From Synechococcus sp. BO 8801 (GTDB lineage: Bacteria; Cyanobacteriota; Cyanobacteriia; PCC-6307; Cyanobiaceae), in the NCBI RefSeq assembly GCF_002252675.1, contig NZ_NQKY01000009.1, forward strand, positions 1 through 64,000: 64,000 bases of DNA, given 5' to 3'. A model generated the notes under the pieces. That model made no database searches. It was not told the origin of the DNA and saw only the letters and a program-made list of their open reading frames with translations. Positions 8,093-48,433 of this stretch are shown here, piece after piece. The position numbers and the translations under genes were made by a program. Within the stretch, counting starts at the first letter, position 1. Every line of letters starts with the position of its first letter.

Positions 8093-9911
<1,819 letters not shown>

Positions 9912-42864: not shown

Positions 42865-45654
42865 ATGCCCTCCAGCCCCACCGTCGGCTCCGCTGACACC
42901 ACCACCGGTGGCGTGCCGTCGCTGGAGCAGCTGTTTCCCTTCCCCCTCGACGGCTTCCAGCTCGAGGCGATCGATGCCCTGAACCAGGGCCACTCGGTGG
43001 TGGTGAGCGCCCCCACCGGCTCCGGCAAGACCCTGGTGGGCGAGTACGCCATCCATCGGGCCCTGGCCCATGGCCAGAAGGTCTTCTACACCACGCCCCT
43101 CAAGGCCCTCTCCAACCAGAAGCTGCGCGATTTCCGCCACCAGTTCGGCGATGAGAAGGTGGGCCTGCTCACCGGCGACCTGAGCCTGAACCGGGAGGCC
43201 CAGGTGGTGGTGATGACCACCGAGATCTTCCGCAACATGCTCTACGCGGAGATCGACCACCTCGACGACGACCCCCTGGCCGATGTGGAGGCCGTGGTGC
43301 TCGACGAGTGCCACTACATGAACGACACCCAGCGGGGCACGGTCTGGGAGGAGTCGATCATCCACTGCCCCTCGCGGGTGCAGCTGGTGGCCCTCTCGGC
43401 CACGGTGGCCAATGCCGGCCAGCTCACCGACTGGATCGAGCGGGTGCATGGCCCCACCCGGCTGATCCACAGCGACTTCCGCCCCGTCCCGTTGGCCTTC
43501 AGCTTCTGCAGCGCCAAGGGTCTGCACCCCCTGCTCAACGACGAGGGCACCGGCCTGCACCCCAACTGCAAGGTCTGGCGCCCTCCAAAGTCCACCCGCC
43601 GCAAGGGACCGAAGGAACCGCGGCCGCCCCAGCCGGAGGCGCCGCCGATCGGCTTCGTGGTGGCCCAGATGGCGGAGCGCGAGATGCTGCCGGCCATCTA
43701 CTTCATCTTCAGCCGCCGCAACTGCGACCGCTCCGTGCGCGACCTGGCCAAGGTGTGCCTGGTGGATCCCCAGGAGCAGGCGCGCATCCGCCAGCGGCTC
43801 GACGCCTTCATGGCGGTGACCCCGGAGGCGGTGCGCGACGGCGGCCATGCCGATGCCCTGCTGCGGGGCATCGCCGCCCACCACGCCGGCGTGCTGCCGG
43901 CCTGGAAGGAGCTGATCGAGGAGCTGTTCCAGCAGGGGCTGATCAAGGTGGTGTTCGCCACCGAGACCCTGGCCGCCGGCATCAACATGCCCGCCCGCAC
44001 CACGGTGATCTCGGCCCTCTCCAAGCGCACCGAGCGGGGCCACCGGCCGCTGATGGGCAGCGAATTCCTGCAGATGGCGGGACGCGCCGGCCGCCGCGGC
44101 CTCGACACCCAGGGCTACGTCGTGACGGTCCAGAGCCGCTTCGAAGGGGTGCGGGAGGCCGGGGCGCTGGCCACCAGCCCGGCCGATCCGCTGGTGAGCC
44201 AGTTCACCCCCAGCTACGGCATGGTGCTCAACCTGCTGCAGCGCTACGACCTGGCCAAGGCCCGGGAGCTGGTGGAGCGCAGCTTCGGCCGCTACCTGGC
44301 GGGCCTGGATCTGGCCGAGGACGAGGCCCGCATCGCCGAGCTGATGGCCCAGCTGGCCACGCTCGAATCCAGCGGCGGCGAGGTGCCCTGGGACGATTTC
44401 GAGGACTACGAGAAGGTCCGCGGCCGCCTGCGGGAGGAGCGCCGCCTGCACAGGATCCTGCAGCAGCAGGCCGAGGAGACCCTGGCCCACGAGCTCACCC
44501 TGGCGCTGCAGTTCGCCAGCGAGGGCACCCTGGTGAGCGTCAAGGCGCCGGCCCTGCGCAGCCGGGTCACGCCGGCGGTGATCGTGGCCAAGGTGCCGGG
44601 ATCCGGCCAGTTCCCGCTGCTGCTCTGCCTCACAGACGAGAACGTCTGGATCCTGCTGCCCTGCCACGCGGTGGTGACCCTGCACGCCGAGCTCAGCTGC
44701 TTGCAGGTGGACCAGCTGGAGCCGCCCGAGCTGCACCACGCCAACGAACTGCGCCATGGCGACAACGCCAGCGGCGGGCTGGCCCTGGCGGTGTCCTCGA
44801 TGGCCCGCCGCCACGACATGCACACCCCCCGCTACGACCTGGCCGGCGAGGTGCGCCAGCAGGGTGAGCTGGTGCAGCGGCTGGAGCAGGAGCTGGAGGC
44901 CCACCCGGCCCACCGCTGGGGCGACCGCAAGCACCTCAAGAAGCACCGCCGCCGCATGGAGGAACTCCAGGAGGAGATCGGCGAGCGGCAGCGGCTGCTG
45001 CACCACCGCGCCAACCGCCACTGGGACACCTTCCTGTCCCTGATCGACATCCTGCGCTTCTTCGGCGCCCTCGATGGCGAGGAGGGGCTGGAACCCACCG
45101 AGGTGGGCCGCACCGTGGCGGCCCTGCGGGGCGACAACGAGCTCTGGCTGGGGCTGGCCCTGATGAGCGGCCACCTCGATGCCCTGGATCCGGCCGAGCT
45201 GGCCGCAGTGCTGGAGGCCATCTCCACCGAGGTGAACCGGCCCGACCTCTGGTGCGGCTACCCGCCGCCACCGGCCTCCGAGGAGGCCCTCCACGACCTG
45301 CGCAGCCTGCGGCGCGAGCTGCAGCGCCAGCAGGAGCGGGCGTCGGTGGTGGTGCCGGTGTGGTGGGAGCCCGAGCTCACCGGCCTGGTCCACGCCTGGG
45401 CCAGGGGCGCCAGCTGGAACGACGTGATCGCCAACACCTCCCTCGACGAGGGCGACGTGGTGCGGATCCTGCGCCGCACCGTCGATCTGCTGGCCCAGAT
45501 TCCCTACTGCGAGGCGATCAGCGAGCAGCTGCGCCGCAACTCACGGCTGGCCCTCAAGGCCATCAACCGCTTCCCGGTCTGTGAGATCGAGGATCTGCTG
45601 GCGGGCGGCAACGGCAAGCTGGATCCGGCGACGGAGCGGCCGCCGGCGGCTTAG
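42865..45654 (+). CDS. Ski2-type DExH RNA helicase with DSHCT-like C-terminus
   Basis: 929 aa. Helicase motifs in order: SAPTGSGKTLV (Walker A, residues 48-58), TPLKALSNQKLRDF, LTGDLSLN, VVLDECHYMND (DECH 147-150), LSATVANAGQLTDW, FIFSRRNCDR, FATETLAAGINMPARTTVI and MAGRAGRRGLD. The C-terminal part includes RYDLAGEVRQQGELV and a helical DSHCT-like domain (LVHAWARGASWNDVIANTSLDEGDVVRILRR). It is a conserved cyanobacterial RNA helicase of the Ski2/Mtr4 superfamily, probably acting in RNA decay or processing. It marks the return to core genome after the island. Confidence 0.93.
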   Translation: MPSSPTVGSADTTTGGVPSLEQLFPFPLDGFQLEAIDALNQGHSVVVSAPTGSGKTLVGEYAIHRALAHGQKVFYTTPLKALSNQKLRDFRHQFGDEKVGLLTGDLSLNREAQVVVMTTEIFRNMLYAEIDHLDDDPLADVEAVVLDECHYMNDTQRGTVWEESIIHCPSRVQLVALSATVANAGQLTDWIERVHGPTRLIHSDFRPVPLAFSFCSAKGLHPLLNDEGTGLHPNCKVWRPPKSTRRKGPKEPRPPQPEAPPIGFVVAQMAEREMLPAIYFIFSRRNCDRSVRDLAKVCLVDPQEQARIRQRLDAFMAVTPEAVRDGGHADALLRGIAAHHAGVLPAWKELIEELFQQGLIKVVFATETLAAGINMPARTTVISALSKRTERGHRPLMGSEFLQMAGRAGRRGLDTQGYVVTVQSRFEGVREAGALATSPADPLVSQFTPSYGMVLNLLQRYDLAKARELVERSFGRYLAGLDLAEDEARIAELMAQLATLESSGGEVPWDDFEDYEKVRGRLREERRLHRILQQQAEETLAHELTLALQFASEGTLVSVKAPALRSRVTPAVIVAKVPGSGQFPLLLCLTDENVWILLPCHAVVTLHAELSCLQVDQLEPPELHHANELRHGDNASGGLALAVSSMARRHDMHTPRYDLAGEVRQQGELVQRLEQELEAHPAHRWGDRKHLKKHRRRMEELQEEIGERQRLLHHRANRHWDTFLSLIDILRFFGALDGEEGLEPTEVGRTVAALRGDNELWLGLALMSGHLDALDPAELAAVLEAISTEVNRPDLWCGYPPPPASEEALHDLRSLRRELQRQQERASVVVPVWWEPELTGLVHAWARGASWNDVIANTSLDEGDVVRILRRTVDLLAQIPYCEAISEQLRRNSRLALKAINRFPVCEIEDLLAGGNGKLDPATERPPAA

Positions 45655-45708: not shown

Positions 45709-45768
45709 TTATTGGCGGAATGGCCAATACGGTGCCAGTATTGGCTTGCGTTCGGACGCTGCCAATAC
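45709..45768 (+). repeat. Left copy of the four-box palindromic repeat flanking the ATPase gene
   Basis: Box 1 is TTATTGGC (45709-45716), then 6 bases, GCCAATAC (45723-45730), 7 bases, GTATTGGC (45738-45745), 15 bases, GCCAATAC (45761-45768). Box 1 differs from GTATTGGC only in its first base. The right copy at 47053-47112 has the same four boxes and the same spacers of 6, 7 and 15, while the spacer bases differ. The repeat ends seven bases before the ATPase ATG, so it may also serve as an operator. Confidence 0.9.
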
Positions 45769-45775
45769 CCTCTCC

Positions 45776-47044
45776 ATGGCACTTCCGAACCTCTGGAGGC
45801 TCTACAACCTTCGCTCCTCGCCCTTTTTCCAGGCCACCCTCCGCCAGGACTCGGAGGCCACGCCCCTCAGCCTGTTCGTGGGGCGCCAGGACGAGCGGCA
45901 GCGGCTGCTCAACGCCATCGGTGGCTCCCGCAGTTCCCGTCAGGCGGTGGCGGGGCGGCCTGGTATCGGCAAGACCACCCTGGTGCAGGCCGCCAAGGCC
46001 GACGCCCTGGCCGCCGGCTACTGGACCTCAGCCGAGATCATCCCGATCACCGCGGATCTGACCAGTGAGGATCTGATCGGCCAACTGCTCGCCGGCGCCT
46101 TTGATGCCGTGCTCGCCTCCTGCCCGCAGGCGAGCGGACCCGCCGTGGAGGCTGCGCAGCAGTTGGTGCGCACCATCCGTCTGCGCGGTGGTGGCTTCAC
46201 GGTGTCGGCCGCCGGCTTTGGGGCGGGCGGCACCAGCACCCAGGCGGTCTCCTCGCCCCCTGGGGCCCTGCTGCTTGATGGACCCAGGGTTTTGCGCGAT
46301 CTGCTGGCCTTCGCGCTGGAGCAGGGCGCCTCCGGTGTGGTGCTGCACCTCAACAATCTCGAGAACCTCAGTGAGGCCGATGCCACCCGTGCTGCCGATC
46401 TGCTGCGCAGCATCCGCGACCAGGCCCTGTTGCTCGATGGCCTGCACTTGATCGTGGTGGGCACCACCGATGCCGTCCGCATCGTGGTGCAGAGCCACAC
46501 CCAGGTGCGCTCGGTGTTCAGCGATCCGGTGGTGCTCGAACCCCTGGAGCCGCAGGAGGTTCACCAGTTGCTGGAGGCGCGCTACCGATCCCTGCGACTG
46601 GAACCGAGCCTGCCGGTGCAGGCGCCCGTGCAGGGTGCGGTGATCGATGCGTTGCATGAGCTGTTCCGAGGCGATCTGCGCGGATTGCTCAAGGCCTTGG
46701 AGGACGGCATCTCTGCCCTGCTCGGTCTGACCGGCGACGGTGAGGGCCCCCAGCCGATTGACCTGGCCGACCTCACCCTCGTGCTGAGCCGTCGCTACAG
46801 ACTGGAATTGCTGGACCAGCTCGGCACCACCCTCTGGCAACGGTTGGAAGCCTGGGGCGAGCGGGACCTGCAGGCGGTGCTGACCCAGGCCGACCTGGTG
46901 AAGCTCTGGGGGATCAAGCAGCCCTCGGTGTCCCAGACGTTGCAGCAACTGGTGCATTCGGGTGCCGCGGACGTGCTGCCACGCCGGGGAGGGGAACCGC
47001 TTCAGTACCTGCTGACCGGCGCGACGCGGCTGGCCCTCAGCTGA
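45776..47044 (+). CDS. P-loop ATPase with C-terminal winged helix, flanked by four-box repeats
   Basis: 422 aa from the ATG at 45776 (MALPNLWRLYNLRSSPFFQ); the frame extends 26 codons upstream through the repeat and is discounted. Segments in order: N-terminal WRLYNLRSSPFFQ, FVGRQDERQRLL, Walker A AGRPGIGKTTL (59-69), the place of Walker B taken by VVLHLNNLE (188-196), sensor-like LIVVGTTDA (225-233), then a winged helix (about 362-422) with TQADLVKLWGIKQPSVSQTLQQLV. The layout resembles ORC/Cdc6-like or STAND ATPases that bind DNA. It lies between the core genes for the helicase and purB, with nothing but the two repeats around it. Function unknown. Confidence 0.85.
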   Translation: MALPNLWRLYNLRSSPFFQATLRQDSEATPLSLFVGRQDERQRLLNAIGGSRSSRQAVAGRPGIGKTTLVQAAKADALAAGYWTSAEIIPITADLTSEDLIGQLLAGAFDAVLASCPQASGPAVEAAQQLVRTIRLRGGGFTVSAAGFGAGGTSTQAVSSPPGALLLDGPRVLRDLLAFALEQGASGVVLHLNNLENLSEADATRAADLLRSIRDQALLLDGLHLIVVGTTDAVRIVVQSHTQVRSVFSDPVVLEPLEPQEVHQLLEARYRSLRLEPSLPVQAPVQGAVIDALHELFRGDLRGLLKALEDGISALLGLTGDGEGPQPIDLADLTLVLSRRYRLELLDQLGTTLWQRLEAWGERDLQAVLTQADLVKLWGIKQPSVSQTLQQLVHSGAADVLPRRGGEPLQYLLTGATRLALS

Positions 47045-47052
47045 AGGGCGAC

Positions 47053-47112
47053 GTATTGGCTGATCGGCCAATACCGGCGACGTATTGGCTGTTGGCAGCC
47101 ACCAGCCAATAC
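47053..47112 (+). repeat. Right copy of the four-box palindromic repeat
   Basis: GTATTGGC (47053-47060), 6 bases, GCCAATAC (47067-47074), 7 bases, GTATTGGC (47082-47089), 15 bases, GCCAATAC (47105-47112). It begins eight bases after the ATPase stop and ends 25 bases before the purB stop. The order of spacers is the same as on the left, so the two 60-bp units are in direct orientation. Confidence 0.92.
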
Positions 47113-47137: not shown

Positions 47138-48433
47138 TCAGATCCTCAGCCGCTCCCAGATCACGTCCAGATTCGCCCGGTGCAGGTCGGTGGCGAAGCA
47201 GGCCTCCAGCTGCTCGGGGCCCAGGTGGTCCGTCACCGCCGGATCGCCCGCCAGGTTGGCGCGGAAGTCGCCGCCCTCGGTGTTCCAGGCGGCGTGGGCG
47301 TGGCGCTGCACGATCCGGTAGGCCTCCTCCCGGCTCAGCCCCGCCTCCACCAGGGCCAGCAGCACCCGCTGGCTGAACACGACGCCGCCGTAGACGTTCA
47401 TGTTGCGGGCCATGTTCTCGGGGTAGACCCCCAGCCCTTCGACCACGGCGGTCATCTCCCGCAGCATGAAGTGCAGGGTGACCGAGCAGTCGGGCAGCAT
47501 CATCCGCTCCACCGAGCTGTGGCTGATGTCGCGCTCGTGCCAGAGGGCCACGTTCTCCAGCGCGGCCACGGTGTAGCTGCGCAGCACCCGGGCCAGGCCG
47601 CTGATGCGTTCGCTGCGGATCGGGTTGCGCTTGTGGGGCATGGCCGAGCTGCCCTTCTGGCCCTTGGCGAAGTTCTCCTCCACCTCCAGCACGTCGGAGC
47701 GCTGCAGGTTGCGGATCTCGGTGGAGAAGCGCTCCAGGGAGGTGCCCACCAGGGCCAGGGTCTGGACGTACTCGGCATGGCGGTCGCGGCCGATCACCTG
47801 GGTGCTGGCGGTGTCGGGCTCCAGGCCCAGCAGCCGGCAGGTGATCGCCTCCACCTCGGGGTCGGTGTTGGCGTAGGTGCCCATGGCGCCGCTGATCTGG
47901 CCCACGGCCACCACCCGCTCCAGCCGCTCCAGCCGCTCCCGGTTGCGCTCGGTCTCGGCCAGCCAGCCGGCCACCTTGAAGCCGAAGGTGATCGGCTCGC
48001 CGTGGATGGCGTGGGAGCGGCCGATCATCACCGTGTCCTTGTGGGCCCGGGCCAGCCGGCGCAGGGCGTCGGCCAGGCCATCGAGCTCGGTGCGCAGCAG
48101 GGCCACCGAGGCCTTCAGCTGCAGGGCCAGGCCGGTGTCCAGCACGTCGGAGCTGGTCATGCCCACGTGGATGTAGCGGCCCGCATCACCGACGTGCTCG
48201 TTGACGTTGGTGAGGAAGGCGATGACGTCGTGGCGCACTTCCGCCTCGATCTCCAGGATCCGCGGCACCTCGAAGGCCGCCTTCTCGCGGATCGTGGCCA
48301 GCGCCTCGGCGGGCACCCGGCCCAGCTCCACGTTGGCGGCGGTGGCGGCGATCTCCACCTCAAGCCAGCTCTGGAACTTCGCTTCCTCGCTCCAGAGGCG
48401 GCCCATTTCGGGCAGGGTGTAACGCTCGATCAA
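47138..48433 (-). CDS. purB: Adenylosuccinate lyase
   Basis: 431 aa from a TTG at 48433 (reads MIERYTLPEMGRLWSEE). Family signatures are HVGMTSSDVLDTGLALQL, GRSHAIHGEPITFGFKVAGW, GQISGAMGTYANTDP and the catalytic flexible loop KGQKGSSAMPHKRNPIRSE, with ERDISHSSVERMMLPD after it. It acts twice in purine synthesis (SAICAR to AICAR and adenylosuccinate to AMP). It converges on the ATPase unit. Confidence 0.96.
   Translation of the reverse strand: MIERYTLPEMGRLWSEEAKFQSWLEVEIAATAANVELGRVPAEALATIREKAAFEVPRILEIEAEVRHDVIAFLTNVNEHVGDAGRYIHVGMTSSDVLDTGLALQLKASVALLRTELDGLADALRRLARAHKDTVMIGRSHAIHGEPITFGFKVAGWLAETERNRERLERLERVVAVGQISGAMGTYANTDPEVEAITCRLLGLEPDTASTQVIGRDRHAEYVQTLALVGTSLERFSTEIRNLQRSDVLEVEENFAKGQKGSSAMPHKRNPIRSERISGLARVLRSYTVAALENVALWHERDISHSSVERMMLPDCSVTLHFMLREMTAVVEGLGVYPENMARNMNVYGGVVFSQRVLLALVEAGLSREEAYRIVQRHAHAAWNTEGGDFRANLAGDPAVTDHLGPEQLEACFATDLHRANLDVIWERLRI

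Follow-up and report, generated by a model that had tools for sequence, protein, structure and literature searches.

A four-box DNA site at an AAA+ ATPase gene of Synechococcus sp. BO 8801 that recurs in defence loci, mobile elements and a few cyanophages

BrxR is a WYL-domain repressor of BREX systems and defence islands. It has two operators, the first preceding brxR itself and the other, farther along, preceding brxA, and it represses both; the operator is a single pair of 11-bp inverted repeats with a 5-bp gap (PMC9122601). In parallel, a 2026 survey placed BrxC and BrxD in the ORC/Cdc6 clade, with a winged helix after the BrxC ATPase (PMC12839542). The locus described here may share traits with both. 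It lies in a window of 64,000 nucleotides, the whole stretch of DNA that was analysed, and comprises an ATPase gene and two copies of a four-box site set between two core genes:

42865 to 45654, plus strand: SKI2-like helicase, the left flanking core gene, adjoining purB in genomes where the gap is empty
45709 to 45768, plus strand: left (upstream) four-box site, 60 bp, read directly from the sequence as TTATTGGC-6-GCCAATAC-7-GTATTGGC-15-GCCAATAC, with a counterpart in 21 of 21 homologues
45709 to 45716 (TTATTGGC), 45723 to 45730, 45738 to 45745 and 45761 to 45768: boxes of the left site
45776 to 47044, plus strand: gene for a 422-residue AAA+ ATPase (AAA_16) with a C-terminal winged-helix-like region, from Pfam profiles and homologues
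45953 to 45979, plus strand: Walker A motif (P-loop) GRPGIGKTT, almost invariant among homologues
46871 to 46990, plus strand: winged-helix-like region, approximate (residues about 366 to 405), from weak Pfam HTH matches over residues 363 to 405
47053 to 47112, plus strand: right (downstream) four-box site, 60 bp, read directly from the sequence as GTATTGGC-6-GCCAATAC-7-GTATTGGC-15-GCCAATAC
47053 to 47060, 47067 to 47074, 47082 to 47089 and 47105 to 47112: boxes of the right site
47138 to 48433, minus strand: purB, the right flanking core gene, convergent

A preliminary description of this DNA had reported four alternating boxes on either side of one gene, with spacers of 6, 7 and 15 bases, and rereading of the sequence found them exactly so. 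Seven of the eight box copies are identical and the eighth carries one change, as had been stated, and the coordinates bear out the distances of 7 bp from the left site to the ATG at 45776 and of 8 bp from the stop codon (47042 to 47044) to the right site. Taken whole, the two sites form a direct repeat and differ at 1 of 32 box bases and 20 of 28 spacer bases, the spacer lengths being equal. Given the base composition, a four-box site would arise exactly by chance with a probability of about 10^-20 per position, and a search of the genome (3.27 Mb, 47 contigs) returned the two window sites and no third. Half sites sought at three mismatches over the whole genome gave few matches, fewer than a backward-pattern control. 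Between the right copies of the window and of genome G062, 0 of 32 box bases and 13 of 28 spacer bases are changed (p=7e-6). In the same way, information reaches 1.68 bits in the boxes vs 0.58 in the fixed-length spacers over 37 distinct sites, a set that includes related sequences, as do the other site counts.

The product had been described as an ATPase with a winged helix, and this stands: AAA_16 (PF13191) scores 46.7 bits against a cut-off of 32.6 (E 6e-12), and a winged-helix-like match lies at the C-terminus, where MarR_2 is found at E 2e-4, below its own cut-off. GRPGIGKT is invariant in the homologues and the following T nearly so. The AlphaFold model is poor (pLDDT 55.6); the winged-helix call thus depends on the weak Pfam matches, and the best PDB match of this low-confidence model, 2qby (Cdc6/Orc1, E 4e-4, TM 0.25), is a hint only, Cdc6/Orc1 being a protein that binds repeated boxes. 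As in ORC/Cdc6-STAND proteins, BrxC and BrxD included, an AAA+ module is followed by a winged-helix-like region. The family matches are nevertheless under their cut-offs for Pfam BrxC_BrxD (18.1 bits vs 22.2) and NCBIfam BrxD (15.5 vs 350), and weak for PADLOC BrxD (E 0.003) and nSTAND. Moreover, BrxC measures 1200-1300 residues vs 422 here, and unlike the BREX core ATPases the present one is not obligatory for BREX. The likeness to BrxR is that of a gene for a winged-helix regulator in a defence island with an inverted-repeat operator upstream of itself, binding by the ATPase being a prediction. BrxR carries a WYL sensor and no ATPase, whereas the Pfam scan gave AAA_16 and no WYL domain here; its operators lack the four 8-bp boxes with 6-7-15 spacing, and no sequence relation between the two proteins was found in this analysis. 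A phage or plasmid origin of the ATPase was considered and set aside, the phage and plasmid collections holding no match.

Full or partial relatives of the ATPase were found in 21 of 36 same-genus genomes in a first search, a few of which, short matches of about 30% identity, are probably unrelated ATPases. Outside the genus, 1 of 23 genomes gave a match, again of this short kind at about 30% identity. Further copies came from a genome scan, under record titles of Cyanobium, Synechococcus, Vulcanococcus and Aphanocapsa. The relatives are draft assemblies, some of them incomplete, in which a missing gene can be a gap, and some gene contexts derive from a simple codon-score gene finder and model searches of selected proteins. 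An upstream four-box site was present in 21 of 21 loci examined, ending 7-8 bp before the ATG, the copy of G027 being degenerate. A downstream copy was seen in 6 of the 21 (G000, G022, G062, G008, ATX 2A4, G021); these copies mismatch at no more than 7 of 32 positions, and shuffled sequences always gave at least 10. A downstream site is therefore rejected as a general rule, and the gene with two sites, taken earlier for the unit, fails as a general unit because most homologues have the upstream site only. Several genomes hold ATPase remnants with internal deletions or frameshifts, as expected of a dispensable accessory gene. A second, partial copy (residues 256-420) lies at contig C33:10746-11246 of G062, beside the complete site-gene-site unit of that genome. 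Of separate concern, L053:1-3106 carries the genes for the cyanobacterial ATPase and VRR-NUC although its assembly is titled Bifidobacterium breve, so that this title or bin is probably wrong. A strict pattern detected the site in none of 390 genomes of the class except members of the genus.

The gap between the helicase and purB occurs in three forms. Site, gene and site are found in G000, G022 and G062; one site without the gene in G007 and G017; and no site in G011, G025, G004, G060, G024, G012, G003, G061 and G008. The empty and single-site alleles agree with the earlier view of an insert between two core genes, and the predicted single-repeat allele is thus present in two relatives. In the lone site, the left flank and the first base are those of the left copy and the inner spacers those of the right copy, the 7-base spacer being that of the G062 right copy, and this mixed makeup places the exchange point at or near box 1. 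Its probable origin is recombination of one direct repeat with the other, which would delete the gene and leave one site, the direction and the mechanism being what we infer; as far as the sequences go, loss by repeat recombination and gain by insertion beside a resident site would both fit the lone-site allele. In a purB tree of weak support, G062 stands apart from G000 and G022, near which the no-site genomes G011 and G025 are placed, so that losses or transfers probably occurred more than once. PurB is 97% alike between G000 and G002 and the ATPase 70%, the corresponding values for G000 and G062 being 93% and 95%; ATPase identity does not track PurB identity, and the gene has therefore moved horizontally. 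It belongs to the accessory genes of defence islands and mobile elements and has spread by horizontal transfer. No clear target duplication was seen at the empty helicase-purB site. A MITE or insertion sequence is rejected for this reason and for the lack of terminal inverted repeats, as is a transposon with such repeats, since both whole sites point the same way and enclose no transposase gene.

The defence genes near ATPase copies include BREX genes, hipBA, LeoA and VapBC, and models confirmed PglX, PglZ, BrxL, HipA, LeoA and PDC-S27 as neighbours. The gene stands opposite pglZ in G002 and G063, beside hipBA and BREX genes in G024, G033, Vulcanococcus and UBA5018, and beside a VRR-NUC gene in phage-like mobile elements of G021, G028 and Aphanocapsa. 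ATPases or their remnants occur in 11 of 13 genomes with a BREX-type pglZ vs 11 of 29 others (p=0.006, uncorrected for relatedness). On the other hand, pglZ is absent from the window genome, G022, G008, G027 and G035, so the ATPase is not always in a BREX locus. In L113:1152-10500, a BREX locus, a HipBA pair is inserted between pglX and pglZ-brxL, an arrangement that recurs in several genomes of the genus. Another restriction-type neighbour, a McrBC-like (McrC) gene, starts directly after one ATPase copy of G035 (L035:8509-8919). In G064 the gene is 57 bp from tRNA-Val, and in L051 this tRNA gene is complete and precedes the site by 57 bp. A 35-bp copy of the tRNA-Val 3' end, like an island attachment site, is found at L046:5140-5174 (G001), at a distance of 58 bp ahead of the site that belongs to an ATPase remnant.

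The site also occurs without the gene. It lies upstream of VRR-NUC in elements of G021, G020, G035 and G061 that have no adjoining ATPase, where the slot beyond it holds YoeB-YefM, HicAB or other genes. The elements L108, L109, L110, L111 and L112 encode VRR-NUC, a ResIII helicase, a primase, an ssDNA-binding protein and BRO genes, the slot between VRR-NUC and the helicase being interchangeable among ATPase, YoeB-YefM and HicAB. A degenerate site is found between pglX and hipB in G023, a BREX locus without the ATPase. Among viral contigs, L147 matches at all 32 box bases, L153 and L154 have three boxes, with a small HTH-like gene about 19 bp away, and L155 carries the site too. The latter is a tailed-phage contig, and in its stretch 8262-8678 an insert of about 200 bp, host-derived and made of the four-box site and the 5' end of a BREX pglZ, interrupts a small gene whose counterparts in related phages are whole. 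Scattering of the boxes without the gene, named beforehand as a refutation, is thus seen in part, in mobile elements, a BREX locus and phages. Box-like stretches with 5-7-15 spacing in terminase genes (L156:363-421, L158:6619-6677, L159:1822-1880), antisense to the large subunit gene, are probably coincidence because a conserved protein motif already gives related terminases matches at 16-20 of 32 positions.

Two ATPase-less elements differ at 0 of 32 box bases and 13 of 28 spacer bases (p=7e-6); boxes that stay fixed while spacers drift indicate that selection still acts on them. No ATPase relative was detectable in G061 and G020, though their boxes are intact, so either another protein binds there or the gene was recently lost. 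From the constancy of the boxes and from G061, they appear functional independently of the adjacent gene.

With moderate confidence, we read the site as an operator-promoter to which a winged-helix regulator would bind, in all probability the ATPase, and which travels with defence and mobile DNA. Two promoter-like matches fall within it:

45741 to 45769, plus strand: possible rightward promoter in boxes 3 and 4, TTGGCT, 17 bp, AATACC, then 6 bp to the ATG
45737 to 45765, minus strand: leftward promoter-like match TTGGCA-17-AATACT in boxes 4 and 3, 9/12, shuffles averaging 0.1

The 17-bp spacing and a distance of 6-7 bp to the ATG recur in 16 of 16 loci compared, and the rightward hexamers match the sigma-70 consensus only weakly and are far from it. 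Boxes 3 and 4 would overlap a promoter whose transcript starts at or near the ATG, giving a leaderless mRNA; if so, the promoter would account for the constant length of the 15-base spacer as well as for the fixed distance to the ATG. An oligomeric winged-helix protein, most likely the ATPase itself, may bind the boxes and repress or activate its own gene together with the gene facing it on the other side (pglZ, hipBA or VRR-NUC), with ATP binding or a phage-derived signal as a putative switch. In G063 divergent pglZ has its ATG about 9 bp beyond the end of the site, the start of hipB is about 86-99 bp from the site in several loci and that of VRR-NUC 38 bp; with divergent genes starting so close on the far side, one site could control both. 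The helicase and purB orientations set the right copy between two convergent genes, and a simple operator without an obvious gene to control counts against this reading. That copy probably serves as a second operator, either in looping or for a neighbouring gene since lost. Of mobility, defence and autoregulation, all left open in the preliminary description, regulation fits best and the association with defence is strong, while mobility appears as carriage on islands and mobile elements; the unit includes no recombinase or transposase, which gives no support to autonomous mobility.

The chief rival, in view of the varied cargo beside the site and the one-site alleles, is a recombination (attachment) site, which may fold into ssDNA hairpins, with the ATPase as one of several cargos and a recombinase encoded elsewhere. 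This recalls integron cassettes, in which a gene lies beside a site of paired inverted boxes and variable cargo follows the site. The attC core site is GTTRRRY. The box consensus here, GTATTGGC/GCCAATAC, lacks that core, the site is 5' of the gene, and no IntI was noticed beside the unit. The zero-, one- and two-site alleles at helicase-purB and the exchange point mapping to box 1 suit such a site, but for the single-site allele ordinary recombination across the 60-bp direct repeats is explanation enough. The slot after the site in VRR-NUC elements varies (ATPase, YoeB-YefM, HicAB) with homology stopping at or near the site, and a phage gene has received the site with a pglZ fragment; yet no recombinase travels with the unit, and the downstream site is missing from most copies. 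An attachment site moreover needs no constant 7-8 bp to an ATG. Of eight double changes in box pairs, seven keep pairing where 3.8 are expected, covariation that is suggestive only, as whole-structure controls are barely above shuffles, and a C-C mismatch in box 1 (GTATTGCC) is common and uncompensated. On balance a recombination site is possible but unlikely.

It is rather improbable that the site is owned by phages, as an origin, a packaging signal or a regulatory site, and that satellites and defence loci took it over so as to respond to, or be packaged by, infecting phages. The perfect site of L147, the three-box form near an HTH-like gene in L153 and L154, the copy in L155 and the presence of the site in VRR-NUC elements with primase, ssDNA-binding protein and BRO genes would accord with this. 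However, only about 3-4 phage lineages among 2.9 million viral contigs carry it, their positions share no homology, and the L155 copy is clearly host-derived. A variant of the operator reading is similarly doubtful: the site would be an infection-responsive operator common to cyanophages, phage-like elements, BREX loci and the ATPase, at which the AAA+ protein on the boxes shuts its own and neighbouring defence promoters until replicating phage or element DNA with the site titrates it away and turns defence on, the DNA site itself being the infection signal.

Neutral palindromic repeats (REP or MITE-like) that flank the gene by chance and are kept alike by hairpin-templated correction are very improbable. 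Paired changes within box pairs and sites without the gene would be expected of them, and palindromic repeats also flank a gene in REP/BIME systems with RAYT. Here two copies, not dozens, are present in 3.27 Mb, with another sequence and no REP-associated transposase; the whole sites are direct rather than inverted, the boxes are conserved across widely diverged copies, and the fixed position before one gene in 21 of 21 loci had already made neutrality unlikely. Finally, RNA hairpins of the transcript (5' leader control, 3' end protection) instead of a DNA-bound site have the slightest chance, for although both hairpins pair in 92.6% of cells and one copy lies at each gene end, the promoter would need to lie upstream, in flanks unrelated at every locus, divergent use by pglZ and VRR-NUC requires both strands, and a terminator-like T run is absent.

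How defence genes are switched on in freshwater picocyanobacteria is poorly known. In these organisms the 8-6-8-7-8-15-8 pattern would be a precise regulatory code, common to BREX, toxin-antitoxin genes, mobile elements and phages. Binding of the site by the ATPase would make this protein an ATPase-type counterpart of BrxR, and recombination at the site would mean a new cassette system. The single-site and empty alleles of close relatives make the operator and recombination ideas directly testable. Common to the ATPase gene, BREX loci, mobile elements and a few cyanophages, the site appears to be a shared switch for control in the arms race between hosts and phages, and not a transposon's own.
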